Positions 10,201 through 39,600 of a DNA stretch of 39,600 nucleotides are shown piece by piece. Numbering within the stretch: position 1 is the stretch's first letter; every line of letters begins with the position of its first letter. Below the pieces are notes generated by a model that searched no databases, was not told the origin of the DNA, and was given only the letters and a program-made list of their open reading frames with translations. This stretch comes from Ralstonia sp. ASV6 (GTDB lineage Bacteria; Pseudomonadota; Gammaproteobacteria; Burkholderiales; Burkholderiaceae), in contig NZ_JAELUI010000043.1 of NCBI RefSeq assembly GCF_016429285.1, positions 1 to 39,600 on the forward strand, given 5' to 3'. The position numbers and the translations under genes are program-made.

Positions 10201-10255
10201 TGCGCATCTCCGTGGACAAAAACGCGCAGCAGTATCGCGTAGCGCGCTCAAGCTG

Positions 10256-21345: not shown

Positions 21346-21359
21346 GAGATGAGTGCCAC

Positions 21360-21929
21360 ATGAAACTGACGGTAACCCCCACCACGCTTCCCGGTGTCCT
21401 AGTCCTTGAGCCAAAGGTGTTTGGCGACGAGCGTGGGTTCTTTTTTGAAAGCTTCAATACGAGGGAATTCGTACAAGCCACTGGTTTGCGGCGCGAGTTT
21501 GTGCAGGACAACCATTCTCGGTCAGCGCGCAATGTATTACGTGGACTGCATTATCAAGTTCAGCATCCGCAAGGAAAGCTCGTGCGCGTTGTTGCTGGTG
21601 AGGTATTTGATGTCACCGTCGATTTGCGGAAACACTCCCCGACATTCGGTCAATGGGTTGGTGTTACGTTGTCTGCGGAGAATAGGCGGCAGTTGTGGGT
21701 ACCAGAAGGCTTTGCCCATGGATTTGTCGTTACTTCGGATTTTGCAGAATTCCTATATAAGACGACGGATTATTGGTATGCGGAGCACGAGAGAGTGCTT
21801 GCATGGAACGACCCCGCATTGGGGATAGAATGGCCGGTTTCCGAATCGCCCGTTCTGGCCGCCAAGGATGCTGCCGGCGGGAAACTTGTTGACGCTGAGA
21901 TATATGCGACTGCATTGGGAAACGCCTGA
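21360..21929 (+). CDS. rfbC: dTDP-4-dehydrorhamnose 3,5-epimerase
   Basis: The 189-residue cupin-fold enzyme epimerises C3 and C5 of dTDP-4-keto-6-deoxyglucose. Visible landmarks are DERGFFFESFN near residues 24-34, NHSRSARNVLRGLHYQ with the catalytic His near 64, GEVFDVTVDLRKHSPTFG, VPEGFAHGF and YKTTDYW with the catalytic Tyr, then WNDPALGIEWP. The ATG at 21360 follows rfbA by 14 bases with a weak GAG upstream. From about here on, AT content rises noticeably compared with the first 18 kb. Confidence 0.96.
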   Translation: MKLTVTPTTLPGVLVLEPKVFGDERGFFFESFNTREFVQATGLRREFVQDNHSRSARNVLRGLHYQVQHPQGKLVRVVAGEVFDVTVDLRKHSPTFGQWVGVTLSAENRRQLWVPEGFAHGFVVTSDFAEFLYKTTDYWYAEHERVLAWNDPALGIEWPVSESPVLAAKDAAGGKLVDAEIYATALGNA

Positions 21930-23421: not shown

Positions 23422-23422
23422 T

Positions 23423-24244
23423 ATGGAAATAGCTGCGGATCGCCGGCCAGATGTCGATCTGGCTCAACATAGCGGTAACGATGACCTGCTGATGGGCGTC
23501 TGCGCGGGTCGGATTTGGGGCACGCTCGGATGGCACGATATCAAGCAGCGTTATCGCCGTTCTGTCATTGGGCCTTTCTGGTTCACGCTCAGTACGGCGC
23601 TGATGGTGGTCGTCCTTGGGGCGCTATATTCGACGTTGCTGAACCAGGAAATCCGTGACTATCTGCCGTATCTTGCCGTCGGCCTAGTCATATGGCAGTA
23701 CCTGGGAACCGTTGCAAATGAAGGCTGCATGGCTTTTATTGGGTCGGCATACCTCATTAAACAGATGCGGATTCCTCTGAGCATCCACGTGTGCCGCATT
23801 GCCTGGCGTAACTTTGCGATTCTGTTGCACAGCTTGCCGGTGGTGGTAATCCTGCTTGTTGGGTTTGGACGCTGGCCAAAGTGGGAGTTTTTGCTTGTCC
23901 CGCTAGGGCTAGGTTTGCTTCTGCTGCACGGCATATGGGTAGGTGTGACGCTCGGCATCCTGTGTGCGCGTTTTCGCGATATTCCACCGATCGTGGCCAA
24001 TCTGATCCAGATAGTGTTCTTCTTCACGCCAGTCATGTGGTCGCCAGAAATCTTGAAGGGCCGTGCCTGGATTGCTGAGTACAACCCGCTCTACCACCTG
24101 ATCGAGACGGTTCGCGCGCCGATTACCGGACGTCCCATTCAATGGGAGTCCTGGGTCTGGTCGCTCGGCCTGCTGATGGCCGGCTTCGCACTGGCCCAAT
24201 TCCTAATGCAGCGTTACCGCAACCGGATACCTTACTGGCTTTAA
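23423..24244 (+). CDS. wzm: Polysaccharide ABC transporter, permease subunit (Wzm type)
   Basis: The 273-residue integral membrane protein is an ABC-2 type permease that would export a lipid-linked polysaccharide across the inner membrane. After a 30-residue polar N-terminus it shows RIWGTLGWHDIKQRYRRSVI, the typical amphipathic entry of this family, then about six hydrophobic helices (for example LMVVVLGALYSTLL and VVVILLVGF) and the conserved PVMWSPEIL near residue 205 and YNPLYHLIETVRAPI near 222. The ATG at 23423 is one base past the manC stop; an upstream in-frame GTG is possible. The wzt gene follows after 5 bases. Confidence 0.9.
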   Translation: MEIAADRRPDVDLAQHSGNDDLLMGVCAGRIWGTLGWHDIKQRYRRSVIGPFWFTLSTALMVVVLGALYSTLLNQEIRDYLPYLAVGLVIWQYLGTVANEGCMAFIGSAYLIKQMRIPLSIHVCRIAWRNFAILLHSLPVVVILLVGFGRWPKWEFLLVPLGLGLLLLHGIWVGVTLGILCARFRDIPPIVANLIQIVFFFTPVMWSPEILKGRAWIAEYNPLYHLIETVRAPITGRPIQWESWVWSLGLLMAGFALAQFLMQRYRNRIPYWL

Positions 24245-24249
24245 TAACT

Positions 24250-25017
24250 GTGACTTCATCGATTGTTGCCAAGGAAATCTCGGTCGAGTTTCCGATCTAC
24301 GAGAATTCTCACCGCTCGCTCAAGAAGGCGGTGTTGAATCTGACCACTGGTGGTCGGATTGGTCAGGACGCGGGGCGGCACGCTGTCGTCACTGCGCTTG
24401 ACCGGCTGAGTTTTCGCTTTTCCGATGGCGAGCGGATTGGCCTGCTCGGACACAACGGCTCGGGGAAGACGACACTGCTCAGAACATTGTCCGGCGTCTA
24501 CGCTCCTGTGCGTGGAAAACTCCATATGCGTGGCAAGGTTGCATCATTGCTGGATGTGTCGATGGGTCTGGATCCGGATGCGACAGGCTTCGAGAATATT
24601 TATCTTCGCGGCATCCTTGACGGTCTCAAGCCGGCCCGTATTCGAGGCAAGATCGATGAGATAGCCGATTTCAGTGAGTTGGGCGAATACCTGAATCTGC
24701 CGGTGCGCACTTATTCCAGCGGCATGATGCTCCGGCTTGCGTTCGCCATTTCGACGAGTGTGGAGGCCGATATCCTTATCATGGATGAGTGGCTGAGCGT
24801 GGGCGATGCGGAGTTCAGCGCAAAGGCTACTAAACGACTTGAAGAACTCGTTGGCGCCGCATCCATTCTGGTCGTGGCGACGCACGATCCCACCTTGGTC
24901 GAACGCGTCTGCACGCGCAAGATCAGCTTGGAACATGGGCGGATCATCGCGGACGAACCGGTTTTGAGCAAACAGTCCGATGCACTATCTGAATCCATTA
25001 CGCGGCACTCCGCCTGA
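24250..25017 (+). CDS. wzt: Polysaccharide ABC transporter, ATP-binding subunit (Wzt type) without carbohydrate-binding domain
   Basis: The 255-residue ATPase drives export by the adjacent Wzm. The Walker A is GHNGSGKTTLL near residue 65; the family-specific region ASLLDVSMGLDPDATGFENI follows; the ABC signature is YSSGMMLRLAFAI near 157; and Walker B is ILIMDEWLSVGD near 175. The protein ends soon after the switch His (VATHD), so it lacks the C-terminal beta-sandwich that some O-antigen Wzt proteins use to recognise a chain-terminating group. GTG start, 5 bases after wzm. Its presence makes this an ABC-transporter-dependent glycan locus. Confidence 0.92.
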   Translation: MTSSIVAKEISVEFPIYENSHRSLKKAVLNLTTGGRIGQDAGRHAVVTALDRLSFRFSDGERIGLLGHNGSGKTTLLRTLSGVYAPVRGKLHMRGKVASLLDVSMGLDPDATGFENIYLRGILDGLKPARIRGKIDEIADFSELGEYLNLPVRTYSSGMMLRLAFAISTSVEADILIMDEWLSVGDAEFSAKATKRLEELVGAASILVVATHDPTLVERVCTRKISLEHGRIIADEPVLSKQSDALSESITRHSA

Positions 25018-25068
25018 AAACGTATCGCGTGAAGATGAGAGACTTCACGCCCCAAGAGGCATATCAAA

Positions 25069-26457
25069 TTGAAGATGCGAGCTGACCACCCTTTGCTTCG
25101 GTATGGCGAATCGCTGTTCCGACATCAGCCTTTCAAGACGGTCAAAGGTTTTGTCGGCGCGTATGTCGCGTACCCCATTGCGGAGAACAGAGAAAAGCGC
25201 AGCGTCTCCCCGAAGGTGGCTGAGTTACGGTTGCACTATCTAAAATCGTTCACGGAACGTCGTCAAATTGCCTTGCAGCGCTTGTCGAACATTCTGCAGT
25301 TTGCCGGCCAGGAAGTTCCGTACTATCGCGATGTGTTTCAGGCCAGAGGGTTTGATCCTCTCAAAGCAGGAAAGGATCCCCGTTACCTTGAGGACCTGCC
25401 ATATTTGACCAAGGACGTTATTCGCGAGCAAGGGGCGCGGCTATTTTCCCGTTCATTGGAACAAGTCAGGCATCACGCGTGCAAGACCGGAGGGTCAACC
25501 GGACTGTCTTGCACGATCTTTTATGACCAAGAGGCTGCGGACTATTCTTCGGCGGTCACGTTTTACGCGCGCTTGCGCGCGGGCAAGCGACGCTATCGCT
25601 CCGAATTGCATTTTGCATGCCGTTTCCCCGATGAGACGGTTCCGTTGTGGCCATCGCGGGAAGATTTCAAATGCTTCGCGATGAATCGAAGCAATATCTT
25701 CTTTGATCGTATCGACGATGAGGGGCTCGAAGAAATCTGGCAGACGCTGTTGCGTCGCCGGCCATTTCTTGCGCATGGCCATCCCTCGACAATGTACGCA
25801 TTGGCATGCTATGTCGAGCGCCGCTATGGAGGCGGTAAAGCCTTTGAGGTCTTCGAATCCAGTGGCGAACTGCTGGAGGACGGCGCGCGGGAAGTTATCG
25901 AGCGTGCTCTGCGTTGCCGCGTGATCAATCGCTATGGTCTAGCAGAGCTTGGCGTGATGGCATACGAGCTGGATGGTCGTGAAGCCGGATTCCAGATCCT
26001 CGATTCGGAGGGCTGGGCCGAGAACCGCCTACTGGAAGGCGATATTGATGGTGCCAATGAACTCGTTTTCACCGGCTTCCGGAATCGTTTGATGCCTTTG
26101 ATTCGCTATACCACCGGTGATCTTGCGCGTGTCGAAGAGCGTGACAACGGTTTTTTCCTGACCAATGTTGTGGGCCGGATCCATGACGTTGTACCGATCA
26201 ACGGTACTGCACACGCAACACACCATATCCAAGACATGTTGGATCACCGTGTTGGCGGCATTCAGGAATTCCAGATCGACCTTCGGACCTCCCCCCCCAC
26301 ACTGCGCATTGTGCTTGAACCGTGGGCAAGCGAGGAGGAGACGACCAGGAAGCTGCGCGGGTACTGGAAGGATGCCTTCACTATCGCCTACGTTGGTCAT
26401 GGCGATTTGTTGCGCGTGGGTCATCGGGCCAAATTTCGCCACGTGGTGACTGCATGA
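25069..26457 (+). CDS. Phenylacetate-CoA ligase / CapK family adenylate-forming protein
   Basis: The protein of about 462 residues resembles CapK and PaaK, members of the adenylate-forming superfamily that occur in many capsule and O-antigen loci without a settled role. The nucleotide-binding loop is CKTGGSTGLSC near residues 140-150; FEVFESSGELL and NRYGLAELG follow near 260-305; and a TTGDLARVEE segment near 347 matches the core-to-C-domain hinge region. It may activate an acyl or amino-acyl group that decorates the glycan. The TTG at 25069 is 9 bases after AGAGG; the ATG at 25075 is the alternative. A C8 run near the 3' end is listed separately. The next gene starts in its stop codon. Confidence 0.8.
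   Translation: MKMRADHPLLRYGESLFRHQPFKTVKGFVGAYVAYPIAENREKRSVSPKVAELRLHYLKSFTERRQIALQRLSNILQFAGQEVPYYRDVFQARGFDPLKAGKDPRYLEDLPYLTKDVIREQGARLFSRSLEQVRHHACKTGGSTGLSCTIFYDQEAADYSSAVTFYARLRAGKRRYRSELHFACRFPDETVPLWPSREDFKCFAMNRSNIFFDRIDDEGLEEIWQTLLRRRPFLAHGHPSTMYALACYVERRYGGGKAFEVFESSGELLEDGAREVIERALRCRVINRYGLAELGVMAYELDGREAGFQILDSEGWAENRLLEGDIDGANELVFTGFRNRLMPLIRYTTGDLARVEERDNGFFLTNVVGRIHDVVPINGTAHATHHIQDMLDHRVGGIQEFQIDLRTSPPTLRIVLEPWASEEETTRKLRGYWKDAFTIAYVGHGDLLRVGHRAKFRHVVTA
26291..26298 (+). repeat. C8 homopolymer inside the CapK-like gene
   Basis: Eight consecutive C bases encode Ser-Pro-Pro about 55 codons before the stop. A one-base slip would replace the C-terminal part of the adenylate-forming enzyme and disturb the overlap with the downstream gene. 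The length is at the lower limit for slippage-prone tracts. Confidence 0.85.
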
Positions 26458-28025
26458 TCGGCGTGCTGTTCTCTTCGACGGCCAGCGAAGCAGGCAATCT
26501 CGTGCTCGCAGCCCTGCGTCGCTCGGTAACTGCCAGCCAGGCATGGCCGCTCTCGCGCAGCGCCTTGCGCTCATTTACCGCGTCCATCGTGGTGGCGGTT
26601 GATGTGCCGGATGAGTGGGGCGCGGATCTGCTCGCTTGGATGGACCAAGGCAACAGCAAGCTCGTTGTGTTCGGCCGCATGCCATCCCTAATTGCGCAAC
26701 GGCTTCAATGTCGATCGGATGAATGGCCTGCAGATCTCGCTGGCGCCGCTCGCAGCCAACTCGCGGCCAGCTATGCGGTAAGCGAGAGTCGCGCAACCGT
26801 GCGCTACCGGGAACTCGCCTGCAGTCTCGGCGCAAAGGCGAGGTTCAGGCCGTTCGAGCGCTTCGACTTCGCAGACGAATGGAACAACCTCGGTTATGGT
26901 GCCATTCGCGTTGGTGGATCAATTTGGGGGGTGGCCCAGGCGCTGAATGTGCCAGCGGCAATTGAACTGGCGTCGGTCTTCATCAACGAGGAACAGCGCT
27001 TTTCGTATGCCGCGCTTTGGGACAGCGAGAAATCCAGCTTGCTTTGGTTCAATCGACCTGTGGGTCCAATTGACTCCTTTGAATGGCGGTTGGTTGAAAA
27101 TTTCCTCTCTGCGCACCGCACCGCATCGCTCCCGTGTCAACCCGTTCTCAGCGAGATTCCTTGGGGATACGATGCCGTCATTACCTCGCGGCTCGATTGT
27201 GATGAGGACGTCGAGTCGGCTCGCCCCTTGTGGAAACTGTATCAGCGACTCGGCATTCCGTTCACGCTTGCGGTACATACATCAAACCTGAGCCGCCAGG
27301 AGCATCACGGCATTCTGCAAGAACTGGTCGCCGATGGCGGAGCCGTTTTGTCACATACCGCTACGCACGCCCCGAATTGGGGTGGAAGCTATCAGGCCGC
27401 CTTCACAGAGGCCGATGAGTCTGCACGGCTACTGCAGGCCGTGACCGGCAAGTCTGTGCGCTATGCGGTTTCGCCATTTCATCAGAGTCCGTTTTATGCG
27501 CTGCAAGCGCTGGCGGATGCTGGTTATGCCGGCTGCATTGGTGGCATCATCCGTAACGATCCTGAGTTCCTGATCGCCCGCGGCGGCACGCTGGCAGGCA
27601 TGCCTATTGGTTTCGTTGGCCATAGTCAGCAATGCATGCTGCATGGTGACTGCATGCTGGCCCAGGGCGATCCACTCGCTGTGTTCAAGGAGGCGTTTGA
27701 TCTCGCTTTCGAAAGCAGGACCTTGTTCGGTTATCTGGACCATCCATTCTCCGAGCGCTATCAGTATGGCTGGCCCGATGAGGCAACCCGCGTGGATGCC
27801 CATGATAAGTTCATTGCCTATATCCGGCACCGGGCGACTAAACCGTTGTTCCTGCATGAGGAAGCAGCGCTGGATTTCCTACAGTTCAAATCGGCAGCCG
27901 AGATCGTCATGGAAAAGGGCGAGTACCGCGTGGTAATGCCCAGGGCAACCGACTCCGCACTGCAATTGGCAGTGGAGTTTCATCGGGAATGCCAGTCGGC
28001 GCAAGGTTGGGCGGGGCGGCAATGA
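26454..28025 (+). CDS. Polysaccharide deacetylase-like (NodB-fold) protein
   Basis: The 523-residue protein has a unique N-terminal half of about 235 residues and then a NodB-like region. The metal-binding pattern is recognisable: SRLDCDED with Asp248 and Asp250, and LSHTATH with His301 and His305 in the H-T-x-x-H motif. A later YLDHPFSERYQYGW segment near 425 could be the distal His-containing block. The canonical TFDDG is changed, so substrate and even catalysis are uncertain; de-N- or de-O-acetylation of a sugar is the best guess. There is no signal peptide, so it should act in the cytoplasm. ATGA overlap with the CapK-like gene suggests the two work together. A G6 run occurs near 26927. 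Confidence 0.75.
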   Translation: MIGVLFSSTASEAGNLVLAALRRSVTASQAWPLSRSALRSFTASIVVAVDVPDEWGADLLAWMDQGNSKLVVFGRMPSLIAQRLQCRSDEWPADLAGAARSQLAASYAVSESRATVRYRELACSLGAKARFRPFERFDFADEWNNLGYGAIRVGGSIWGVAQALNVPAAIELASVFINEEQRFSYAALWDSEKSSLLWFNRPVGPIDSFEWRLVENFLSAHRTASLPCQPVLSEIPWGYDAVITSRLDCDEDVESARPLWKLYQRLGIPFTLAVHTSNLSRQEHHGILQELVADGGAVLSHTATHAPNWGGSYQAAFTEADESARLLQAVTGKSVRYAVSPFHQSPFYALQALADAGYAGCIGGIIRNDPEFLIARGGTLAGMPIGFVGHSQQCMLHGDCMLAQGDPLAVFKEAFDLAFESRTLFGYLDHPFSERYQYGWPDEATRVDAHDKFIAYIRHRATKPLFLHEEAALDFLQFKSAAEIVMEKGEYRVVMPRATDSALQLAVEFHRECQSAQGWAGRQ

Positions 28026-28177
28026 GTGCTCTGGTGGTAATGGGGGTACAGCCTGAGGTTGCCAAGCTGGCGTTGGGCAATACCGCACTCCGCAGCAATT
28101 TGCTCAATGACCGCATTGACGCCGTACAAACCGCGGCAAAGTTGCTGAGCGAGCCGCTTGAGGTGTTCCGTGGCTGA
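28022..28177 (+). CDS. Small 51-residue ORF between the deacetylase-like and glycosyltransferase genes
   Basis: The ORF begins at an ATG overlapping the upstream stop (ATGA) and ends in a TGA overlapping the next gene's GTG start by 8 bases, so it fills the gap between two genes exactly. The product, starting MSALVVMGVQPEVAKLALG, is mostly helical in character with no membrane segment, signal peptide or motif I recognise. It may be a small accessory protein, a translational coupling device or chance. No clear ribosome site precedes it; coupling from the upstream gene would be needed. Confidence 0.45.
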   Translation: MSALVVMGVQPEVAKLALGNTALRSNLLNDRIDAVQTAAKLLSEPLEVFRG

Positions 28178-29384
28178 GCGGCGTGGACCTACGGTGACGC
28201 CTGGTGACTGTGTGCTGTTCTCGACGGCGGACTGGGACGAGCCGTACTGGACCAACAAGCAGCACACCGCGCGTGCTCTCGCGCGGCAAGGTTGGCGCGT
28301 GCTCTATGTGGAAAGCGTCGGCTTGCGCGCCCCCAGGATGTCCAGCGGCAAGGATTGGTCGAGAATATGGCACCGTCTATGGCGCGGCTTGCGCTCGACC
28401 CTCTTCGCACCGCCGCAGCGCGAATCGAACCTTTGGGTGCTCTCTCCATTGATGGTGCCGGCTATGCACCACTGGCCGCTGGTGCGCGGCTTCAACCAGG
28501 CGTTGCTGCGCTGGAGCGTCGGCCGTTTTGCTAAAAAGCATGCTTGTCGCCGGCCCATATTGTGGACCTATCATCCGTTCATGCTGCCTGCTGTGCAGAA
28601 TTTGCAGCATGGCCCCCTGGTTTATCATTGTGTCGACGACCTCGCTGCTGTGCCGGGTGTGGACGTGGCGGCATTCAGGCGGGCGCAGCAGCAACTGCTG
28701 GGGCGCAGTGACGCCGTCTTCACCACAGCGGTCGCGCTGCTTGAGCAATGTCGTCCGCACAACGCCAATACGCATTTTTTTGCGAACGTGGTAGATGCGG
28801 AGCATTTTGGCACGGCGTTGAGCGCGCAGGCACTTCCTGCGGACTTGGCAGTGATACCTGGACCGCGACTCGTCTACCACGGCGTGCTTTCGGATTTCAA
28901 GGTGGACTTCGCACTGCTGCTTGCCGCGGTGGCCATGCGACCAGATTGGCAATGGGTGTTCATTGGCGAGGAGCGAGAAGGTCAGCGCAGTGAGTTTGTG
29001 TCGCGCTTGCGCGAGCGGCCCAATGTGCATTTCCTTGGCTACCGCAGCTACGCTGATTTGCCTGGATATTTGCGGGGTATGAGTGTTGGTCTGTTGCCGA
29101 CACAGCTGAACGACTACACGCGCTCCATGTTCCCGATGAAGTACTTCGAGTACTTGGCAGCGGGGCTGCCGGTTGTGTCGACACCGCTGGATTTCACTCG
29201 GCATCAGTCGCAAGGACTCGAGATTGGGGCCGACGCGGCACAATTTGTGGCCGCTATCGAGCGACAACTTGCTCGCGGCAAACTGAGCCATGCCGAGGCG
29301 AAGGCATATGTCGGCGAAAACACCTGGGATGCCAGGACGCTGAAGATGCTGGAGTATGTTTGGCCGGAACGCGACCGCAGTTAG
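28170..29384 (+). CDS. Glycosyltransferase (GT-B fold, TuaH/GT4-like)
   Basis: The 404-residue cytoplasmic protein starts with DCVLFSTADWDEPYWTNKQ and HTARALARQGWRVLYVES, typical of TuaH-like transferases. A central LVYHCVDDLAAVPG segment lies near residue 150, and the C-terminal donor domain has RLVYHGVLSDFKVD, VHFLGYRSYADLPGYL and MFPMKYFEYLAAGLPVVSTP near 315-335, the nucleotide-sugar-binding end of GT-B enzymes. Donor and acceptor cannot be read. GTG start with GAGGT 7 bases ahead, overlapping the 51-residue ORF. The following gene starts 48 bases later. Confidence 0.85.
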   Translation: MAERRGPTVTPGDCVLFSTADWDEPYWTNKQHTARALARQGWRVLYVESVGLRAPRMSSGKDWSRIWHRLWRGLRSTLFAPPQRESNLWVLSPLMVPAMHHWPLVRGFNQALLRWSVGRFAKKHACRRPILWTYHPFMLPAVQNLQHGPLVYHCVDDLAAVPGVDVAAFRRAQQQLLGRSDAVFTTAVALLEQCRPHNANTHFFANVVDAEHFGTALSAQALPADLAVIPGPRLVYHGVLSDFKVDFALLLAAVAMRPDWQWVFIGEEREGQRSEFVSRLRERPNVHFLGYRSYADLPGYLRGMSVGLLPTQLNDYTRSMFPMKYFEYLAAGLPVVSTPLDFTRHQSQGLEIGADAAQFVAAIERQLARGKLSHAEAKAYVGENTWDARTLKMLEYVWPERDRS

Positions 29385-29432: not shown

Positions 29433-30401
29433 ATGAGTGATTCCCGAGTACTGATCACCACTTACCCGACCGCGTTTCTGTATCGCGGTGGGGGCGAGCT
29501 CGAACTTGTCGACTTGCTGACGAACCTGAGGCAGTTGGGCGTTCGCGCTGATATCTATGGTTCGACGTCGCTGCCGCTGAGTAAATATGACGTGATCCTG
29601 CATTACTCCGTGGTGCCAACGGGGATGGAATTCGTCCGGGAAGTGAAGGCTGCGGGCAAGAAGCTGGTATTGCTGCCCAGTGTCTGGTGGGCTAAGGAGC
29701 CGTCCCAAGCTGACAGGAACTCGGTGGCCGAATTCTTCAAACTGGCAGATGTAGTTGTCTTCAAGTCGAAGGCTGAGTATGAGAACGTCGCCCAGTATGT
29801 GTCACTGGACGCGTCCAAGGTGGCGTACTGCCGTTGGGGTGTCGATTCCTGTTTTGAAGAGCGGATCGACGGAAGTCTGTTCAGGGACACCTACAAGCTG
29901 GGCGATTATTTGCTTAGCGTTGGCATTATCGAAGAACGCAAAAATCAGCTGTCTGCGATCCACGCACTCCGGGATTCGAAGATCCCGTTAGTTTTCATTG
30001 GTGACTATCGAGATCGCGCCTACTACGAGGCCTGTGTGAAGGCGGCACCAGGCCACTTCAAGTTTCTGCCCTATCTGCAACCCAAGTCGGAAATGCTGCG
30101 CTCCGCCCTTCACGGATGCGAGGCATACATTGAAGTGTCACTCGAGCCTGTCGGGTTTTCGGCTTTCGAAGCTGGATTGGCTGGCATACCCTTGGTGCTT
30201 TCGGCGGGAGCGTGGACTCAGGAGCATTTTGGCGACCTGGTGCACCAAGTGGATCCGATCTCGACCTCGTCCATTCAGCGCGGGGTGGAGGCCGCACTGA
30301 GTGCGCCTGTGTCCCCGCAGTTGCAGCGGAATATCCATAATCAGCATCTGCTACCGCAGAGTCTTGAGCCATTGGTGCGAGTGCTGAAACTGCGAGCCTA
30401 A
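29433..30401 (+). CDS. Glycosyltransferase, GT4-like, type A copy 1
   Basis: The 322-residue protein is a compact GT-B transferase. The acceptor half opens with VLITTYPTAFLYRGGGELEL; the donor half has VGIIEERKNQLSAIHAL near residues 165-181, FLPYLQPKSEMLRSALHGCE near 210-229, and VGFSAFEAGLAGIPLVLS near 238. It is clearly a paralogue of the product of 33706-34677: both share the GGGE start, the E-x-R-K-N-Q-L block and SEMLRSA-x-x-GCE. The usual EGFG acidic motif is replaced by LEPVGFSAFEAG. ATG start with GGAG 8 bases upstream. It precedes the sugar-phosphate cyclase gene by 54 bases. Confidence 0.85.
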   Translation: MSDSRVLITTYPTAFLYRGGGELELVDLLTNLRQLGVRADIYGSTSLPLSKYDVILHYSVVPTGMEFVREVKAAGKKLVLLPSVWWAKEPSQADRNSVAEFFKLADVVVFKSKAEYENVAQYVSLDASKVAYCRWGVDSCFEERIDGSLFRDTYKLGDYLLSVGIIEERKNQLSAIHALRDSKIPLVFIGDYRDRAYYEACVKAAPGHFKFLPYLQPKSEMLRSALHGCEAYIEVSLEPVGFSAFEAGLAGIPLVLSAGAWTQEHFGDLVHQVDPISTSSIQRGVEAALSAPVSPQLQRNIHNQHLLPQSLEPLVRVLKLRA

Positions 30402-30455: not shown

Positions 30456-31592
30456 ATGAGCGAAACCAATTTGCCACGCCAATTCAATTTTCACGCCGAT
30501 CGAAGGTTGGAAAGCGAAGTTGTTGTCCGGAAAGACGCCCTTCGGCATTTGGATACGATGGGTGTCCTTGACCATATTCGGAAGGAATCCAAACACCTTC
30601 TTGTTACCGACAAGAATGTAGAGAAGCTGTACCTGCGTCGGGTGCTGGAGTGTATTGAGCGGTCTGGTCGTTCCGTCCGTACCCTGGTCGTTCCCGCACA
30701 CGAGGGTTCCAAGAGCTTCCGGTGGTATTCCCAGCTTGTTGAGAAGGCTCTCGACTACGGCTTTGATAAGTACTCAGTGATCTTCAGTCTTGGCGGCGGT
30801 GTTGTGAACAACCTCGCCGGTTTCCTTGCATCCACACTCTATCGTGGGATCGGGCTAGTTCATTTTCCAACGAGCCTGCTGTCTCAGGTGGATGCTGCTA
30901 TTGATTTCAAGCAGGCGATCAACTTCGATCACGGCAAGAATCTCATCGGAAGCTATTATCCGGCGTCCAAGATTATCGTAGACCCACTGGTATTGCGCAC
31001 GCTGGACGTACGCCTGATTCGCGACGGTTTGGCTGAATCCATCAAGCATGCGATCTGTCAGGACACGGCGTTTCTCTCGTTCATTTGCTCGAATAGCGAG
31101 CACTTGGTCGATCCGGATTTTCTTTCTGAAGTTGTCGCAAAGTCGATCGAGCTCAAGCTCGAAGTCATGAGCGGTGACCTTGATTCAGATTACGATGAAA
31201 CACTGAAGCAGTATGGCCATGCTATCGGGCATGCTGTGGAGCACTTGTCCGAAGGCGAGGTGTACCACGGAGAAGCGATCTCGATCGGTATGTGTGTATC
31301 GGCGGAGGTAGCACTGCTGCTCGGCTTGTCCGATGAGGAAACAGTGGAATTGCACTACGACGTCTTTAGGCGCATCGGGTTGCCCACAATCGTTCCAGAT
31401 GCATTTTCGTTATCTGATCTCTGGGAAAAGATTCGCTACGACAAGCATTTCTTAAATGGAAAAGCCTATATGGGCCTTGTGAGGACCGCGGGGGTAATGG
31501 CCCCTACTACGACCGGAAATTTCGGCCATTACATTGAGCAGGATGTAATATTCGCGGCGATTGAGCGTAACCGCCGCCAGGCGCTGAGCTGA
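30456..31592 (+). CDS. Sugar-phosphate cyclase of the dehydroquinate synthase superfamily, 2-deoxy-scyllo-inosose synthase-like
   Basis: The 378-residue NAD- and metal-dependent cyclase keeps the superfamily metal ligands Glu194 (LAESIKH), His255 (YGHAIGHAVE) and His271 (YHGEAISIGM) and the GGG nucleotide loop. It differs from AroB at diagnostic places: GGGVVNNLAGF has Asn119 where AroB has Asp; the V-G-G-K-T block reads DFKQAIN followed by GKNLIGSYYP; and Tyr precedes GHAIGHA. From memory, these match the 2-deoxy-scyllo-inosose synthase BtrC (GN, KQAVN, GKNLVGFYYP, YGHTIGHA). It therefore probably cyclises a hexose phosphate to an inosose-type cyclitol for the glycan, not dehydroquinate for aromatic amino acids. 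No partner aminotransferase is in the window. The substrate is inferred only. Confidence 0.8.
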   Translation: MSETNLPRQFNFHADRRLESEVVVRKDALRHLDTMGVLDHIRKESKHLLVTDKNVEKLYLRRVLECIERSGRSVRTLVVPAHEGSKSFRWYSQLVEKALDYGFDKYSVIFSLGGGVVNNLAGFLASTLYRGIGLVHFPTSLLSQVDAAIDFKQAINFDHGKNLIGSYYPASKIIVDPLVLRTLDVRLIRDGLAESIKHAICQDTAFLSFICSNSEHLVDPDFLSEVVAKSIELKLEVMSGDLDSDYDETLKQYGHAIGHAVEHLSEGEVYHGEAISIGMCVSAEVALLLGLSDEETVELHYDVFRRIGLPTIVPDAFSLSDLWEKIRYDKHFLNGKAYMGLVRTAGVMAPTTTGNFGHYIEQDVIFAAIERNRRQALS

Positions 31593-31710: not shown

Positions 31711-32904
31711 ATGGGTCATCGCTTGTTCTTCGACGTGACGGAACTGGCTGGTTTCGATAAGGGCACCGGAATCCAGCGCGTTACGCGTGCCTTACTTCTC
31801 GCAGTAAGCCGTAGTTGTCCATCAGATTGGCAAGTGGTGCCGGTGGTTGGCGATGGTGTGGCTGGGGTGTTTCGTTCGGTTCCGTCAATGTTGTCGGGTG
31901 ACCGTGGTATTACTGAGGAGAACATTGAACCTTTGCAGGGGGATATTTTCCTTAGCGTGGATTTGGCGTACAACATTACGCCGAGCCTTCGCCAAGAACT
32001 GGTTCGATTTCGTGGTGAAGGCGTCTGCATCTATTTTGTCGTGTACGATTTGGTGCCGTTAATGTACCCCGAGTGGTTCGAAGGTACAAATGCTTGGTTC
32101 GAAGGAAATGATTATTTGGATTTATTCTCCCATTGGTTCGAATGTGCTAGCGAAGAGGCGGATGGCCTGATTTGCATTTCCGATTCGGTGCGTCAGGATG
32201 TGAGGCGCTGGCTGGAAACGCACAAACCGAGGCGCGCTGAGCTCCCTCAGCTGGGGTATTTTTATCTCGGATCCGATATCAGCGAGAGTGTGCCGACCAA
32301 GGGTTTGCCGCAGGATGTGTCGTCAGTGCTTGGTCGACTCCGTGCTGCGCCGACCTTTCTTATGGTGGGAACCCTGGAGCCGAGAAAAGGCCATGAACTT
32401 GCGCTCGACGCGGTCGAAGGTCTTTGGGCCGAGGGGGCAGATGTCAACTTGGTGATGGTGGGGCGCGAGGGGTGGAAGATTGAACGCCTAGCGCAGCGCC
32501 TGAAAGAGCATCCGGAGCTCGGGAAAAAATTGTTCTGGCTGGATGGCATTAGTGATGAATATTTGCGCGAAATCTATTCCAGCGCATCAGTTCTACTAGC
32601 ACTTTCGCTAGCCGAAGGATTTGGCCTCCCATTGGTGGAGGCTGCGCGCTTTGGTGTTCCATTAATTGTGCGTGATATCCCAGTGTTCAGGGAGATATGC
32701 GGAGCAGGTGCAACATACTTTCAGGGAAAATCAAATGCAGAGCTGCGTGCGTTGCTGCGGGAATGGTTGCATAGCTCTCATACCGGTTCAGTGTCATGCG
32801 TGAATAGTATTAAAGTACATTCTTGGCGGGAATCTGCTGAACAGCTTATGTCAGCGCTTGGAAAAATGCGTGGGGAGGAATCATTCTGGGGCGTTGGCAA
32901 ATGA
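31711..32904 (+). CDS. Glycosyltransferase, GT4 family, type B copy 1
   Basis: The 397-residue GT-B transferase opens with LFFDVTELAGFDKGTGIQRV, a form common in O-antigen chain-building transferases. It has YDLVPLMYPEWF near residue 111 and DGLICISDSVRQDV near 150. The donor domain contains FLMVGTLEPRKGHELAL near 215-231, GISDEYLREIYSSASVLLAL near 275 and SLAEGFGLPLVEAARFGVPL near 295-314, with the E-x7-E pair intact. It is strongly similar to the last third of the three-domain transferase at 34710-38501, so one probably arose from the other. Its end overlaps the next gene by 4 bases (ATGA). Specificity is unknown. Confidence 0.88.
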   Translation: MGHRLFFDVTELAGFDKGTGIQRVTRALLLAVSRSCPSDWQVVPVVGDGVAGVFRSVPSMLSGDRGITEENIEPLQGDIFLSVDLAYNITPSLRQELVRFRGEGVCIYFVVYDLVPLMYPEWFEGTNAWFEGNDYLDLFSHWFECASEEADGLICISDSVRQDVRRWLETHKPRRAELPQLGYFYLGSDISESVPTKGLPQDVSSVLGRLRAAPTFLMVGTLEPRKGHELALDAVEGLWAEGADVNLVMVGREGWKIERLAQRLKEHPELGKKLFWLDGISDEYLREIYSSASVLLALSLAEGFGLPLVEAARFGVPLIVRDIPVFREICGAGATYFQGKSNAELRALLREWLHSSHTGSVSCVNSIKVHSWRESAEQLMSALGKMRGEESFWGVGK

Positions 32905-33650
32905 AACGTGTGTTGGTGACGGGTGCCGGTCGCGGCATTGGTCTGGGTATCGCGGAAACCTTGGCTGAGCAGGGATATGCTCTGGATCTGGTAGTGAGTA
33001 GTGAGGCTTCTCTTGCACGCTTGCGGCAGTCACATGTAGCGCAACAAGCAAATGTACATATCATTGTGCTGGATTTTCGCGACCGTGTCGCTGTGAGCCG
33101 GTTTATCGGAAGCTGGAAAAATCCGTTGTGGGGAATCGTGAACAATGCGGGAATCTGCAAGACGTTTTCCATAGCCGATGCCGGCGATGATCCGTTGGAT
33201 GAAGTGCTTGGTGTCAACCTTATTGGTCCCTATTTGTTGACAAAAGGGTTGCTCCCACATCTTTCGAGACCTGGTCGTATCGTCAACATTGCTTCTCAGC
33301 TCGGCCAGGAGGGACGGGCAGGCTATTCCGCCTATTGCGCTTCGAAGTTTGGTTTGATTGGGATGACCAAGTGCTGGGCCAAGGAGCTTGGTGCCGAAGG
33401 CGTTACAGTGAATGCGGTTTGTCCTGGCTGGGTGGGGACAGAGATGTCATACATCGATGTGGATCGTATGGCTGTGGAGGAGGGGGTAACTTTCGAGCAG
33501 TTTTACAAAGATATTTGCCGGCCCCTTGAGCTTAAACGTTTTAACACGACCGCCGAAGTGGCGAATCTCGTCGCCTTTCTTTTGTCTGATCAGGCATCAG
33601 GAATCACGGGGCGTGACTGGTTAATGCAAACGGTTTGGAATCAATCGTAG
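32901..33650 (+). CDS. Short-chain dehydrogenase/reductase (SDR)
   Basis: The 249-residue classical SDR has the cofactor motif TGAGRGIGLG at residues 7-16, the NNAG motif near 79, Ser-Tyr-Lys catalysis (IASQLGQEG, then YSAYCASKFG near 149-158) and VNAVCPGWVGTEM near 172. The sequence ranks with FabG-like reductases, but a place inside a glycan locus between glycosyltransferases, and after a sugar-phosphate cyclase, suggests it oxidises or reduces a sugar or cyclitol instead. The final WLMQTVWNQS differs from the usual D-G-G-x-x-x-x ending of FabG proteins. ATGA overlap with the gene before it indicates translational coupling. Confidence 0.85.
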   Translation: MKRVLVTGAGRGIGLGIAETLAEQGYALDLVVSSEASLARLRQSHVAQQANVHIIVLDFRDRVAVSRFIGSWKNPLWGIVNNAGICKTFSIADAGDDPLDEVLGVNLIGPYLLTKGLLPHLSRPGRIVNIASQLGQEGRAGYSAYCASKFGLIGMTKCWAKELGAEGVTVNAVCPGWVGTEMSYIDVDRMAVEEGVTFEQFYKDICRPLELKRFNTTAEVANLVAFLLSDQASGITGRDWLMQTVWNQS

Positions 33651-33705: not shown

Positions 33706-34677
33706 TTGAAGGCACTGTTTTATAATTATCCATGGGCCATGGATGTCCCTGGGGGCGGTGAGCGCCAATTACTTGCTTACGCCCATCATTTGCCTCGGTT
33801 TGGGGTGCAGGCAGATCTATACGATATGTGGAAACCTAGTCTTGATCGGTACCAGGTTTTCCATGCGTTTTCTGTCATGCCGGGTATTATCGAGATGTGT
33901 GACTATGCCAAAAAGCGGGGACTCAAGTTTGTCGTTAATCCCAACCTTTGGGTGACGCAGGAGACAAAGGAGAATTACCCGCATGCGGCAATATGGAACG
34001 TCCTTGAATTGGCTGACCGTATCATCGTGAATTCCAACATGGAGGCTGATACTCTAAGTGACGTATACGGTTTTCCGCGCGAGAAATTTCACACCGTCTA
34101 CAATGCGGCCGAGGCAGACTTCCTTGTTCCAGTAGATCCTGCGCTCTTTAGAGCTGCGTTTGGTATTGATGGCTCCTATGTCCTGAATGTTGCCAACATA
34201 GAGCCAAGAAAAAATCAACTTGAATTTCTTCGCGTTTTGCGCGAAGCGCGGCCCGATGTGCTCTTTGTCATCGCCGGAACTATCCGCAATCAGTCTTACG
34301 CGGATGCCTGCATGGAGGCGGGGGGGGGGCAGCTACGAATTATTGGTAATTTGCCCTACGCGTCGGAGATGTTGCGATCCGCCATGGCCGGCTGCGAATT
34401 TTTTGCAATGCCCAGTCTTCTGGAAACTCCAAGCATCGCAGCTATCGAGGCGGCTGCTTTGGGGGCTCGTGTCCTTCTGACCAAGGTGGGCTCGACCGTT
34501 GAATACTTCGGTGATTCAGTAACGTACGTGGATCCGTGGTCCCACGAGTCTATGCGGGCTGGGGTTGCAGAGGTTGCGGTTTCATCTACGGAAAAATCCA
34601 TCTGGGCGGCCCGTAGCCGATTGCTCTGGCCGCAAGCAATTCCGGAACTTGTCCGTTGTTATCGTTCGCTTTTCTGA
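33706..34677 (+). CDS. Glycosyltransferase, GT4-like, type A copy 2, with internal G10 tract
   Basis: The 323-residue GT-B transferase is a paralogue of the product of 29433-30401. Shared blocks are PGGGERQLLAYAHHL near residue 16, VANIEPRKNQLEFLRVL near 164-180, YASEMLRSAMAGCEFFAMPS near 219-238 and a LETPSIAAIEAAALGARVLL donor loop. The TTG at 33706 is chosen because alignment with the paralogue needs the residues before PGGGE; an ATG eleven codons in would truncate the first strand. The ribosome site is poor. A run of ten G bases encodes Ala-Gly-Gly-Gly near residue 205, in a variable loop. As sequenced, the gene is in frame and intact. Confidence 0.85.
   Translation: MKALFYNYPWAMDVPGGGERQLLAYAHHLPRFGVQADLYDMWKPSLDRYQVFHAFSVMPGIIEMCDYAKKRGLKFVVNPNLWVTQETKENYPHAAIWNVLELADRIIVNSNMEADTLSDVYGFPREKFHTVYNAAEADFLVPVDPALFRAAFGIDGSYVLNVANIEPRKNQLEFLRVLREARPDVLFVIAGTIRNQSYADACMEAGGGQLRIIGNLPYASEMLRSAMAGCEFFAMPSLLETPSIAAIEAAALGARVLLTKVGSTVEYFGDSVTYVDPWSHESMRAGVAEVAVSSTEKSIWAARSRLLWPQAIPELVRCYRSLF
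34320..34329 (+). repeat. G10 homopolymer in a glycosyltransferase gene, possible phase-variation tract
   Basis: Ten consecutive G bases complete an Ala codon and encode three Gly codons. With one extra G, reading reaches TAA at 34347-34349 within about seven codons. With one G fewer, it reaches a TGA ending at 34480. Either change removes the donor-binding half of the enzyme. The tract is the longest homopolymer I noticed in the window. Confidence 0.9.
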
Positions 34678-34709
34678 TGTAACGATTTTACCTTTTGCTC
34701 TGAATTGCC

Positions 34710-37700
34710 GTGAAAATTATACTTGATCTGCAGGGGTGTCAATCTGCCAGTCGATTTCGAGGAATCGGCCGATACTCGGTTGCCCTTGCCAAGGCGATCG
34801 TTCGAAACCGTGGTGATCATTCCATCAAACTTCTTCTAAATGGTCTTTACTCAGAGGGCTTGAGGGAACTTCGGCAAGAGTTTGTTGGTCAAGTCGATGT
34901 TAATGATATCGTGGTCTTTGATGCTGAGGGCCCGGTCGCTGAATTTGACACAGCTAATACAGGGCGTGCGCGAGTTGCGGAATTGGCGCGGGAGCGATTG
35001 ATCTCATCCATGGCGCCGGATGCGGTGATTTTGACCAGTTTGTTCGAGGGATTTGTTGATGACGCGATCACTTCGGTGGGGGCGCTGGGAGATACACCTT
35101 TTACGGCCGTCACTTTGTACGATCTGATTCCTTATCTAAATCCAGACCCGAATTGGCCAGCGCATTATAAAGATTACTACAGCCGGAAAATCGCTTCGCT
35201 AAAGCGCGCCGATCTTCTGCTGTCAATTTCTGACTACTCCAGGCAAGAGTGTGCTGCGGCGTTGCCTGAACTTGCGGAGCACATAGTTAATATGTCCTCT
35301 GCATGTGATGCTCACTTCTGCACGGCTGAGGGGCCGATCGATCTAGCCCAGCTGAGAGGGGAATTTGGAATTGCGAAGCGCTTCGTCATGTCCGCCGGCA
35401 ACCTTGAGCCACGGAAGAACTTCGGTCAGTTGGTACGTGCTTTTGCGGCCTTGCCTGCGGAGTTGAGGGAAACGTATCAACTAGTCTTAGTGGGGGGGGC
35501 AGAAAAGGAAAAGATTCACGAAATTCAGCAGATCGCCATCGACTCGGGACTCGTTCCCGGCCAGCTTCTCGTGTTGGGTCATGTCTCGGATGCCGATCTG
35601 CGCTTGCTCTACCAAGCGTGCGATCTTTTCGTGTTCCCTTCTTTGCATGAAGGCTTTGGTCTGCCGCCGCTGGAGGCGATGGCTTGCGGCGCAGTGGTGA
35701 TCGGCTCTTGCAAGACAAGTGTGCCTGAGGTCATTGGTCGCGAAGATGCCCTATTTGACCCCACGTCAGTTTCGCAACTATGCGATTTAATGATTAGATC
35801 GCTGACCGACGATGACTTTCGTCAGTCTCTGCGTGAGCATGCGGTAAAGCAGGCGGGAGAATTCTCATGGGATAAGACGGCGCGGCGAGCACTGGGTGCC
35901 ATTGAGGAGCGGGTCGGACGTGGATCGAGCCGTGATGCGGGAAAAACCATTAATCGCGAGCTCCTAAGGAAATCGCGTGTAGCGCTGGTCACACCATTAC
36001 CCCCTGAACGCACCGGTATTGCAGACTACGTTGCAGATCTGATTCCCGCGCTTGCCGAACTCTATGATATTACGGTAATTTCGGATCAGACTGCGGTGCA
36101 GCCTATTCCCGGAAATGCAAGCATAGCCGTGCAGAGTATTTCTTGGTTCAAACAACATGCAGGTGAGTTTGAGCGTATTGTCTACCAGATGGGGAATTCG
36201 CCTTTTCATGTTCACATGCTGGACTTGATGAAGCAGTACCCCGGTGTGGTCGTCTTACATGATTTTTATCTTAGCAGCCTGAAATTGTGGATGGAGGCTT
36301 CTGGATATCGCTACAACGCGTTTAAGCAGTCCTTGTTGGACTCACATGGTTATGCCGCGCTTGAGTACTTGGCGCGCGAAGGCGAGCACGCGGCCAAACT
36401 CGAGTGGCCCTGTAGCTACGACGTGATTAGAGACGCGCTTGGTATCGTGATCCATTCAGAATATAGCCGTGATTTGATTTGTAAGTACTATGGCGATGCT
36501 TTTGCACCAAAGCTTAGCGTGGTGCGTCAGCATCGAGCGTGTGCTAAGAATGTGCAGCGCAAGCAAGCACGTGCCGCCTTGGGCTATACAGACGATGACT
36601 TTGTAGTCTGCGCTTTAGGTTTTATGGACTACACCAAGCTCAATCACGTTCTATTGGAGGCTTGGGGTCGATCCAATTTGGCAAGCGACAAGCGTTGCAA
36701 GCTGGTTTTTGTCGGGGGGCGGGACGAATCGGATTATGGTAATCGTATTGATGGAGCAATCGCCGACATTGATGGCGGCGCTCGCATCAAGATTACCGGC
36801 TTCGCAGACCACGACACCTTCAAAGACTATCTGTCTTCTGCCGATATGGCGGTGCAATTGCGTACGCATTCTCGCGGAGAGACGTCACGCACGGTACTCG
36901 ACTGTCTCGCCCATGGCATTCCTCTGGTGGTAAATGCTAACGGTCCGATGGCGGAGTATCCCAACGACACCCTATTGAAGCTGGAAGACGAATTCGACGT
37001 CGGCGATTTGGTTGCCGCCTTGGAGCGCTTATATGGAGATGCGGAGTTGAGGGCTAAATTGCGGCTCATGGGTCCCGCATATGTTGAGGCTAATCATGCT
37101 CCCGCGAAGACTGCTGCTGGCTATGCCAAGGCGATAGAGGCGGTTTTGAGGTCCGAGCGAACGCAATGCGAGCGTCAGGCAGCTGTTGAGTTTTGGGCGA
37201 GCTACCCAGAGTGCACACCTGATGTTCAGGACGGCGTTGCAGAGAAGGCTGCCGAACTGCTGTTCCTCGCCCGGAAGCCGCATATTTATGTGGATGTATC
37301 TGCGACGGCGCGAAACGACTTGAAGACAGGCATTGAGCGAGTTGCCAGGGCCCTACTTCGGGAGTTGCTGCTCAACCCACCCAAAAGCTGTGACGTGGTG
37401 CCTGTCTATCTTAGCCAGGAGAACGACCAGTGGCACGTACGTAGGGCCCAAACGTATCTGTCGTCGCAGCAGGGTTTCCAGTTGGTGCCGGCGCAGGACG
37501 AACTCGTGATTCCTGTGCGCGGAGACGCTTTGATCGCGCTGGACCTTTTTTCTGATGGCGTGGTCCGGGCAGCGGGGCAAGGGTTATACAACTATTGGCG
37601 GGTGAGCGGAGCGAAAGTTGGGTTCATGGTGCATGATTTGTTGCCGATCACTCGACCGGAGTTCTTTCCGCCGTGGGCCCATGATGTGCACAAGGCTTGG

Positions 37701-38501
37701 ACAACGGCCATTTGTGCGAATTCGGACATGCTGATCTGTATTTCTGATGACGTGCGACAGGCGGTATCCGATTGGTTGCGGGAGAATCCTCCTCCCGGCA
37801 ACGAATCTTTGCCAACATTGCTGATGTCCCACCATGGCGCGGACGTGTCAGCTTCTTTCCCGACGATGGGCCTGCCCGAAGGCGCGGGCACTCTTCTGGA
37901 ACATCTCTCTTCTCGCCCCACATTTCTGATGGTCGGTACGATAGAGCCGCGAAAGGGCCATCTGCAGACTCTTCGAGCTTTTGAGCAGCTATGGAGCGCT
38001 GGTGTCGATGTGAATTTGGTGATCGTTGGTCATGAGGGTTGGAAGGGTTTGCCCGAGCATGAGCGCAGAACGATCCCGGAGGTGGTCGAAAGTATTCGAG
38101 ATTGTCCAGAACTGGGTGAGCGTCTCCACTGGCTCGAGGGAATCAGCGATGAATACCTGAGCCGTATTTATGCTGCGTCCTCGTGCTTGCTGGCCCCTTC
38201 GGAAGGGGAGGGCTATGGGCTACCCTTGATTGAGGCGGCTCAGCACGGTCTTCCTATCATTGCGCGCGATATTCCCGTGTTTCGTGAGGTTGCCGGAGCG
38301 TCGGCTTATTACTTCGGCGGAACTGATGCGGTTGATCTCGGTCAGGCTGTGCGAGTGTGGCTGGAGCTCAGGGCGCGGGGACAGATGCCGGATATCGCAG
38401 GACTTAAGTGGGAGACTTGGGCGCAAAGTGCAGAGCGATTGGGCCAGCTTTTGGCGTCGCAGTTGGGGTGCGCTGAAAGACTTTCGGCTGGCTCCCTGTA
38501 A
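34710..38501 (+). CDS. Three-domain glycosyltransferase fusion (GT4 family)
   Basis: The 1263-residue protein joins three GT-B units. Unit 1 (about 1-415) begins ILDLQGCQSASRFRGIGRYS and has AGNLEPRKNFGQLV and SLHEGFGLPPLEAMACGAVV with the E-x7-E pair. Unit 2 (about 422-835) begins VALVTPLPPERTGIADYVAD and has HDFYLSSLKLW and RTHSRGETSRTVLDCLAHGIP. Unit 3 (about 857-1255) begins IYVDVSATARNDLKTGIERV and has VGTIEPRKGHLQTL and SEGEGYGLPLIEAAQHGLP; it is a paralogue of the type B transferase at 31711-32904. Such fusions often make a whole repeat unit or polymerise an O-antigen chain. GTG start, 32 bases after the previous gene, without an obvious ribosome site. A G8 tract lies in unit 1. Confidence 0.88.
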   Translation: MKIILDLQGCQSASRFRGIGRYSVALAKAIVRNRGDHSIKLLLNGLYSEGLRELRQEFVGQVDVNDIVVFDAEGPVAEFDTANTGRARVAELARERLISSMAPDAVILTSLFEGFVDDAITSVGALGDTPFTAVTLYDLIPYLNPDPNWPAHYKDYYSRKIASLKRADLLLSISDYSRQECAAALPELAEHIVNMSSACDAHFCTAEGPIDLAQLRGEFGIAKRFVMSAGNLEPRKNFGQLVRAFAALPAELRETYQLVLVGGAEKEKIHEIQQIAIDSGLVPGQLLVLGHVSDADLRLLYQACDLFVFPSLHEGFGLPPLEAMACGAVVIGSCKTSVPEVIGREDALFDPTSVSQLCDLMIRSLTDDDFRQSLREHAVKQAGEFSWDKTARRALGAIEERVGRGSSRDAGKTINRELLRKSRVALVTPLPPERTGIADYVADLIPALAELYDITVISDQTAVQPIPGNASIAVQSISWFKQHAGEFERIVYQMGNSPFHVHMLDLMKQYPGVVVLHDFYLSSLKLWMEASGYRYNAFKQSLLDSHGYAALEYLAREGEHAAKLEWPCSYDVIRDALGIVIHSEYSRDLICKYYGDAFAPKLSVVRQHRACAKNVQRKQARAALGYTDDDFVVCALGFMDYTKLNHVLLEAWGRSNLASDKRCKLVFVGGRDESDYGNRIDGAIADIDGGARIKITGFADHDTFKDYLSSADMAVQLRTHSRGETSRTVLDCLAHGIPLVVNANGPMAEYPNDTLLKLEDEFDVGDLVAALERLYGDAELRAKLRLMGPAYVEANHAPAKTAAGYAKAIEAVLRSERTQCERQAAVEFWASYPECTPDVQDGVAEKAAELLFLARKPHIYVDVSATARNDLKTGIERVARALLRELLLNPPKSCDVVPVYLSQENDQWHVRRAQTYLSSQQGFQLVPAQDELVIPVRGDALIALDLFSDGVVRAAGQGLYNYWRVSGAKVGFMVHDLLPITRPEFFPPWAHDVHKAWTTAICANSDMLICISDDVRQAVSDWLRENPPPGNESLPTLLMSHHGADVSASFPTMGLPEGAGTLLEHLSSRPTFLMVGTIEPRKGHLQTLRAFEQLWSAGVDVNLVIVGHEGWKGLPEHERRTIPEVVESIRDCPELGERLHWLEGISDEYLSRIYAASSCLLAPSEGEGYGLPLIEAAQHGLPIIARDIPVFREVAGASAYYFGGTDAVDLGQAVRVWLELRARGQMPDIAGLKWETWAQSAERLGQLLASQLGCAERLSAGSL
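35492..35499 (+). repeat. G8 homopolymer in unit 1 of the three-domain glycosyltransferase
   Basis: Eight G bases encode part of Val-Gly-Gly-Ala near residue 262. One extra G leads to a TGA at 35648-35650, cutting the protein inside its first unit and removing units 2 and 3. The tract falls at the conserved L-V-G-G strand, so part of its G content is explained by Gly codons. Confidence 0.85.

Positions 38502-38562: not shown

Positions 38563-39600
<1,038 letters not shown>

Follow-up and report, generated by a model that had tools for sequence, protein, structure and literature searches.

Sugar phosphate cyclases act by NAD+-dependent oxidation, phosphate elimination, reduction, ring opening and aldol closure. 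One of them, 2-deoxy-scyllo-inosose (DOI) synthase, acts on glucose 6-phosphate, according to PMC6170601. Other cyclases of the superfamily make carbasugars in secondary metabolism, as stated in PMC5133447. The same paper describes EboD of the ebo operon, a superfamily clade that is often annotated as AroB and is placed near the sedoheptulose cyclases. Carbon rings are also known from bacterial O polysaccharides, where the carbocyclic lipopolysaccharide (LPS) sugars bradyrhizose and caryose are precedents. PMC4743980 describes the genes for bradyrhizose as unknown, and in caryose, a 4,8-cyclo nonose (PMC9026286), the carbon ring is five-membered. Such a five-membered ring is not obviously given by a mechanism of the sugar phosphate cyclase type. 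Among open-licence papers in PMC we found none joining 2-deoxy-scyllo-inosose synthase with O-antigen, and none joining dehydroquinate synthase, O-antigen and cyclitol, which does not imply absence from print.

We analysed positions 1-39,600 of contig NZ_JAELUI010000043.1 of Ralstonia sp. ASV6 (GCF_016429285.1); this whole 39,600-nucleotide stretch is called the window. A first-pass annotation had noticed in it an inosose-synthase-like cyclase within an O-antigen-type locus; the observation was confirmed, and its interpretation found support in part. The ORF is intact (378 codons, ATG start), it has the Pfam domains and residues given below, and its neighbours are as claimed, with glycosyltransferases on both sides, an SDR gene downstream and a polysaccharide-deacetylase-domain gene that ends at 28025. 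We call this gene and its product SPC (sugar phosphate cyclase). In window order, the genes of the locus are as follows.

18332..21929, + strand: rmlB, rmlD, rmlA and rmlC (dTDP-rhamnose pathway), context only
22006..29384, + strand: upstream chassis, in order manC, wzm-like, wzt-like, PaaK-like, deacetylase-domain and TuaH-like glycosyltransferase genes, also in six of six loci that lack SPC
29433..30401, + strand: GT2, a GT4-family glycosyltransferase and probable partner of SPC, from its domain and co-occurrence
30456..31592, + strand: SPC (sugar phosphate cyclase), 378 aa, assigned from Pfam domains, NCBIfam scores below cut-off, tree and residues
31711..32904, + strand: GT3, a GT4-family glycosyltransferase, in three of four SPC loci
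32901..33650, + strand: SDR, putative ketone reductase of a cyclitol (Pfam adh_short, E 1e-45)
33706..38501, + strand: downstream chassis, a GT4-family gene followed by a fused triple-domain glycosyltransferase gene, both also in the SPC-less genome G120
38602..39600, + strand: gmd (GDP-mannose 4,6-dehydratase-like), partial, cut by the contig end, 86% to its homologue in L004 over 336 of 344 residues

The exporter genes of the window match galactan Wzm/Wzt models, but below their cut-offs, so "O antigen" is used here as the usual reading of such a locus. The start of the SDR gene overlaps the end of GT3. Its translation reads with the classical TGxxxGIG and YxxxK motifs. Among solved structures the SDR is closest to 3-hydroxybutyrate dehydrogenase and FabG-type reductases, which do not indicate the substrate. 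Among the window ORFs scanned we saw no aminotransferase, and no UbiA-type match was listed for them.

SPC matched the Pfam domains DHQ_synthase (E 5.4e-32) and DHQS_C (E 1.3e-27) far beyond chance. With these domains, the Glu-His-His metal ligands and the general lysines, it is a member of the superfamily. Against the NCBIfam aroB model (TIGR01357) it scored 262 bits, below the curated cut-off of 305 bits, and against TIGR04425 (AroB-related putative sugar phosphate phospholyase, cyclizing) 188 bits, below that of 400 bits. In control searches with the aroB model, two annotated DOI synthases scored 247 and 263 bits, an EEVS-type protein 226, the G170 relative of SPC 267 and a plasmid AroB 384. 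The earlier reading was to fail if the genome had no other aroB. When the genome (5.90 Mb in 718 contigs) was searched with TIGR01357, two matches came back, a canonical aroB at G000:C439 (413 bits) and SPC, and the test went in favour of that reading. SPC is thus not the housekeeping AroB, since the canonical gene lies elsewhere and SPC scores below the cut-off, level with the DOI synthases. Among solved structures the best matches of SPC were AroB chains (168 bits; DOI synthase 143), and among plasmid records an annotated DOI synthase was best (186 bits; AroB 174). Identity was 25-30% to DOI-synthase-type sequences and 26-33% to AroB. A single-sequence AlphaFold2 model of SPC had a mean pLDDT of 39 and was set aside.

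Residues were compared in 64 aligned cyclases: four of the SPC group, six of DOI-synthase type, three EEVS/DDGS, four of TIGR04425 type and 47 AroB. Among the six DOI-synthase-type rows only BtrC (PDB 2D2X) is a solved enzyme; L040 and L041 are so named by annotation, L064 and L065 resemble L040 in sequence and go under different names, and L021 was placed by the tree. Copies and partial pieces (L002, L005, L006, L008, L036, L037 and L038) were left out of the rows. The PDB sequences in the alignment are five of the 16 matched in the structure search with SPC or its relatives, and AroB rows L061 and L062, which carry an internal stop, were read only up to a stop. BtrC numbering matches chain positions from the PDB search. 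The codons discussed are the following.

30810..30812, + strand: Asn119 (Asp in 47 of 47 AroB, Asn in six of six DOI-synthase-type rows)
30909..30914, + strand: Lys152-Gln153, the KQ pair of DOI synthases (BtrC Lys141), from the residue alignment
31035..31037, + strand: metal ligand Glu194, kept in 64 of 64 rows
31197..31211, + strand: residues 248-252 (ETLKQ), with Glu248 for AroB Arg264 and Gln252 for AroB Asn268 or BtrC Glu243
31218..31220, + strand: metal ligand His255, kept in 64 of 64 rows
31266..31268, + strand: metal ligand His271, kept in 64 of 64 rows

All three metal ligands claimed earlier are therefore in place, and the general catalytic positions are conserved in all four SPC-group rows. 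Non-AroB residues had also been claimed at the substrate positions, and Asn119, the DFKQAIN block (residues 150-156) and Tyr253, directly before GHAIGHA, stand where they were placed. Asn119 and Gln153 occur in 4/4 SPC-group and 6/6 DOI-synthase-type rows, and Thr replaces Gln153 in 47/47 AroB. Tyr253 proved less diagnostic of DOI synthase: it is found in 4/4 SPC-group and 6/6 DOI-synthase-type rows, but also in three of the four TIGR04425-type and one of the three EEVS/DDGS rows (none of 47 AroB, which have Phe or Leu).

The likeness to DOI synthase (BtrC and the annotated homologues on plasmids of Streptomyces sp. NBC_00015 and Sodalis praecaptivus) lies in Asn119 and the KQ pair, and further in Tyr253, Gly267 and the metal ligands. 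At the 15 columns that separate DOI synthase from AroB, SPC agrees with DOI synthase in eight, with AroB in two and with neither in five. The likeness claimed earlier stops at Glu243 (like Lys141, a residue with a role in BtrC) and at the DNKRGY motif. Both are common to the six DOI-synthase-type rows, and SPC has Gln252 and DKH instead. Lys330 is as in AroB, where DOI synthase has Asn.

Three pocket residues, which the first-pass annotation had not mentioned, are exclusive to the SPC group among the 64 rows. Glu248 is Arg in AroB and TIGR04425, Gly/Ala in DOI synthase and Asp/Lys/Arg in EEVS/DDGS. Gln252 is Asn in AroB and TIGR04425, Glu in DOI synthase and Asp/Ala in EEVS/DDGS. Ala256 is Thr or Ser in all other rows, Thr being the residue of DOI synthase. 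Because this pocket is unlike that of every subfamily compared, the substrate and product of SPC may be new. An alternative reading is that the enzyme closes no ring, or takes an amino-sugar or other phosphate, and so gives an unusual deoxy-keto or amino-cyclitol sugar of the glycan. The three exclusive residues speak for it, and the acid at the Arg264 position, where the DDGS row carries Asp, could conceivably contact an amino or hydroxyl group. Yet all catalytic and metal positions of the ring-closing members are retained, and we regard it as unlikely.

AroB Arg264 and Asn268 (A. nidulans numbering), which we take to bind the carboxylate of DAHP, are kept in 47/47 AroB and replaced by Glu and Gln in 4/4 SPC-group rows, as are the AroB residues Asp119 and Thr153. 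With Glu in place of the carboxylate-binding Arg, DAHP is an unlikely substrate of SPC. At positions His275 and Lys250 all three EEVS/DDGS rows carry Pro and Met, and the SPC group keeps His259 and Lys234 there (4/4), which argues against a sedoheptulose-type enzyme; on these two residues an EEVS identity was rejected.

In the 64-row tree, built on all columns, the four SPC-group proteins cluster together (100/100), and the DOI synthases are their sister clade (100/98). Constraint tests and a tree with columns removed were made with 30 of the 64 rows. In this 30-row tree SPC and the DOI synthases group at 98/98 and the DOI-synthase rows form their own clade (99/98), with the SPC group as sister outside it. 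The SPC group sits on a long branch (2.87 changes per column with 64 rows and 2.32 with 30). When 99 active-site columns were removed, the grouping with DOI synthases fell to 80/75 and the nearest rows by path were AroB; the sister placement therefore rests partly on active-site columns.

An SPC held with AroB was rejected on all columns (p-AU 0.005), which bears on the view that a second, divergent 3-dehydroquinate synthase has moved into the locus and still acts on DAHP. The fold is of the DAHP family, the aroB model gives 262 bits, the best solved matches are AroB, and without the 99 active-site columns a grouping with AroB was not rejected (p-AU 0.096). The earlier expectation that SPC branches outside AroB thus held on all columns only. 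The four replaced AroB residues, the genome's own canonical aroB and the linkage of SPC to SDR and GT2 go against this view, which we consider very improbable. A second AroB was rejected on the own aroB, the residues and the all-column tree, though less securely once the active-site columns are left out.

Holding SPC with EEVS/DDGS was weakly rejected on all columns (p-AU 0.046), in a tree with three such rows and no EVS or EboD; EboD was compared by description only. A seven-carbon cyclase acting on sedoheptulose 7-phosphate, which would make a valiolone-type carbasugar for the glycan, has in its favour that it belongs to the same superfamily with the same metal ligands, and that carbasugars arise in this way in secondary metabolism (PMC5133447). 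Against it stand this rejection and the His259 and Lys234 of SPC, and it appears quite unlikely.

TIGR04425-type rows form a clade separate from SPC in both trees and keep Arg264 and Asn268; by score, residues and tree, SPC is not a member of that family. In the two loci of this type that were scanned, both sugar-nucleotide-type, the cyclase adjoins an SDR (L066 8712-10497 and L068 10845-12615, both cyclases over the cut-off). Further genes of L066 are one with a SIS domain, a cytidylyltransferase, two of MocA type and one for a 2-hydroxyacid dehydrogenase. The two loci look like another cyclase pathway for a surface sugar.

We treat SPC, from its sequence, as a separate new subfamily with a DOI-synthase-like pocket that is itself no DOI synthase. 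In the wider reading, SPC would stand apart from AroB, DOI synthase, the sedoheptulose cyclases and TIGR04425 as a further kind of cyclase, one that makes a carbocyclic residue of the O antigen by way of a swappable cassette of cyclase, reductase and glycosyltransferase; we see the chances of this as evenly balanced.

Close relatives of SPC (89-91%) were found in three other species, so that four species are known to carry it. A pattern scan of 84,980 species genomes gave Paraburkholderia atlantica CNPSo 3155 (L003) and Trinickia symbiotica JPY-345 (L004), at 89-90%; the scan needs an exact match to a short peptide, and distant relatives would therefore be missed. In the family sample 3 of 249 genomes have a close relative (the genome of the window, G114 and G170), and all others among the matches listed were at or below 172 bits, in the AroB range. 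G114 is the same as L004 and G1051 the same as L003, and each pair was counted once. SPC occurs in 1 of 16 genomes of its own genus, in 1 of 11 of the genus of T. symbiotica (G114) and in 2 of 137 of that of G170 (G170 and G1051). With the limit set at E<=1e-53, matches came from 2 of 399 genomes in the order sample (the own one and G544) and from 1 of 398 in the phylum sample (the own one). No close relative was found among phages (15 records) or plasmids (115 records), all matches being below 60% identity, and the two viral-contig scans with alignments gave three and one distant homologues.

Two distant candidates were rejected. The third locus of the pattern scan (L005, Chlamydiota, 33%) reads as AroB, with an 'NFGHT' motif and a run of shikimate-type genes, named from a reading of their translations. 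The match in G544 (L039, 36%) has AroB residues and falls with AroB in the tree.

The PaaK-like gene is present in 10 of 248 family genomes, nine at 73-100% (own included) and G052 at 39%, and three of the nine carry SPC. We read 31 kb around this gene in the six that do not (G120, G128, G206, G095, G148 and G115). All six loci have homologues of manC, wzm, wzt, the PaaK-like, deacetylase-domain, wecB and TuaH-like genes, and none had a match to SPC or SDR within its 31 kb. G120 continues with the GT4-family gene (71%), the triple glycosyltransferase gene (64%) and gmd, which is the order of the window minus GT2-SPC-GT3-SDR. A search of 248 family genomes for SDR (E<=1e-60, at most 11 first-look candidates scored per genome) gave three, and these are the three that carry SPC. 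GT2 is at 78-80% in the three other SPC genomes and at no more than 42% in the six chassis genomes without SPC, and it is the probable glycosyltransferase partner of SPC. At the place of GT3, G170 has a different glycosyltransferase.

Cyclase, reductase and glycosyltransferase thus occur together or are missing together inside an otherwise shared locus. SPC does lie in a locus of surface-glycan type, as had been proposed, and recurs there as a set with SDR and a glycosyltransferase. The deacetylase-domain gene, which had been counted with the cyclase, is not tied to it, since its homologue is present in all six loci without SPC.

The wecB-like gene of the chassis is missing from the window at 28025-28158; the nine other loci that were read have it between the deacetylase-domain and TuaH-like genes, and the genome of the window has three other homologues (49-50%). 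In the G148 locus (L093, L094) manC was matched in two overlapping pieces (query 1-356 and 334-471) and is perhaps split or frameshifted. The triple glycosyltransferase of the window (34710-38501) has 1263 aa and contains three stretches of glycosyltransferase group 1; T. symbiotica and G170 have a split or shorter homologue.

SPC is under strong constraint. Ten genes were compared (wzt, wecB, the triple gene and rml not among them), and in all six species pairs SPC had the lowest pN (0.03-0.07). For pairs with the window, pN was 0.06-0.07 and pS 0.78-0.80; pS is near saturation, so pN was used for ranking only. We read SPC as a working, selected enzyme in what would be a chemotype-defining block. 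Across the locus (18000-39000) the G+C content is 0.51-0.59, down from about 0.64-0.69 in the upstream part. With this drop, and with SPC in 1 of 16 genomes of the genus, the SPC locus was probably gained or exchanged by horizontal transfer.

A DOI-synthase-type gene (L021) lies at 9836-11050 (-) of another locus (L097, G025:C48:215000-234999), in a genome of the genus of T. symbiotica. Its neighbours are DegT and class III aminotransferases, a PIG-L deacetylase, a GMC oxidoreductase, a GT4 glycosyltransferase and an ABC exporter. This gene set resembles clusters of the aminoglycoside type, here in a member of the Burkholderiaceae. With such a cluster in the same family, and with DOI synthases as the nearest clade on all columns, SPC might be an aminoglycoside-type DOI synthase that serves a secreted small molecule and stands in the locus by chance. 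However, the DegT and class III aminotransferases and PIG-L deacetylase of L097 were not seen among the window ORFs scanned, and the SPC set comes and goes within an O-antigen-type chassis. In G170 a DegT gene is located roughly 17 kb beyond SPC, on the opposite strand. We give this explanation hardly any weight. In G170 (L037), a two-gene transketolase pair and the DegT-type aminotransferase gene lie at 15455-17235 and 18243-19721 (-), downstream of the O-antigen genes and 15-19 kb past SPC.

We hold it somewhat probable that SPC is a hexose-phosphate cyclase whose deoxy-inosose product is reduced by the SDR to a cyclitol and placed by GT2 in the exported O chain, the whole acting as a swappable cassette. 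A hexose phosphate is the most likely substrate, glucose 6-phosphate above all. Using bound NAD+ and a divalent metal, SPC would oxidise one hydroxyl, eliminate phosphate, reduce again and close the ring through an internal aldol reaction to a deoxy-inosose. The linked SDR would then reduce the ring ketone to a cyclitol, and GT2, together with GT3 or its substitute, would add the cyclitol to the O chain that is presumably made by the locus and exported via the Wzm/Wzt-like pair. The entry of the ring into the chain is the weakest step, because the cassette showed neither a cyclitol kinase nor a nucleotidyltransferase of its own (RmlA and ManC of the locus belong to rhamnose and mannose); the ring may act as an acceptor or cap. 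In favour of this cyclitol pathway we count the retained catalytic positions, the DOI-synthase-type Asn119 and Gln153 with loss of AroB Arg264 and Asn268, the all-column tree, the separate aroB, the annotated DOI synthase as best plasmid match, the block-wise co-occurrence with GT2 and SDR, the low pN and the pairing of cyclase and SDR in both TIGR04425 loci. We count against it that Gln252 and Glu248 do not point to one substrate, that the SPC group has a long branch, that its grouping with DOI synthases weakens and AroB kinship is not rejected without the 99 active-site columns, that identity to DOI synthases is no higher than to AroB and that the best solved-structure matches are AroB.

The gene content suggests that a ring-shaped relative of a sugar is built into the surface coat. 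If so, we know of no earlier genetic route by which a cyclitol reaches the O chain of an LPS, and sugar phosphate cyclases, familiar from the pathways of antibiotics, sunscreens and aromatic amino acids, would also serve the bacterial surface.

Upstream of the locus, the window encodes a PilJ-type chemotaxis protein (943-3171) beside a 2055-aa CheA-type kinase (3263-9430) with Hpt, HATPase, CheW and response-regulator domains.
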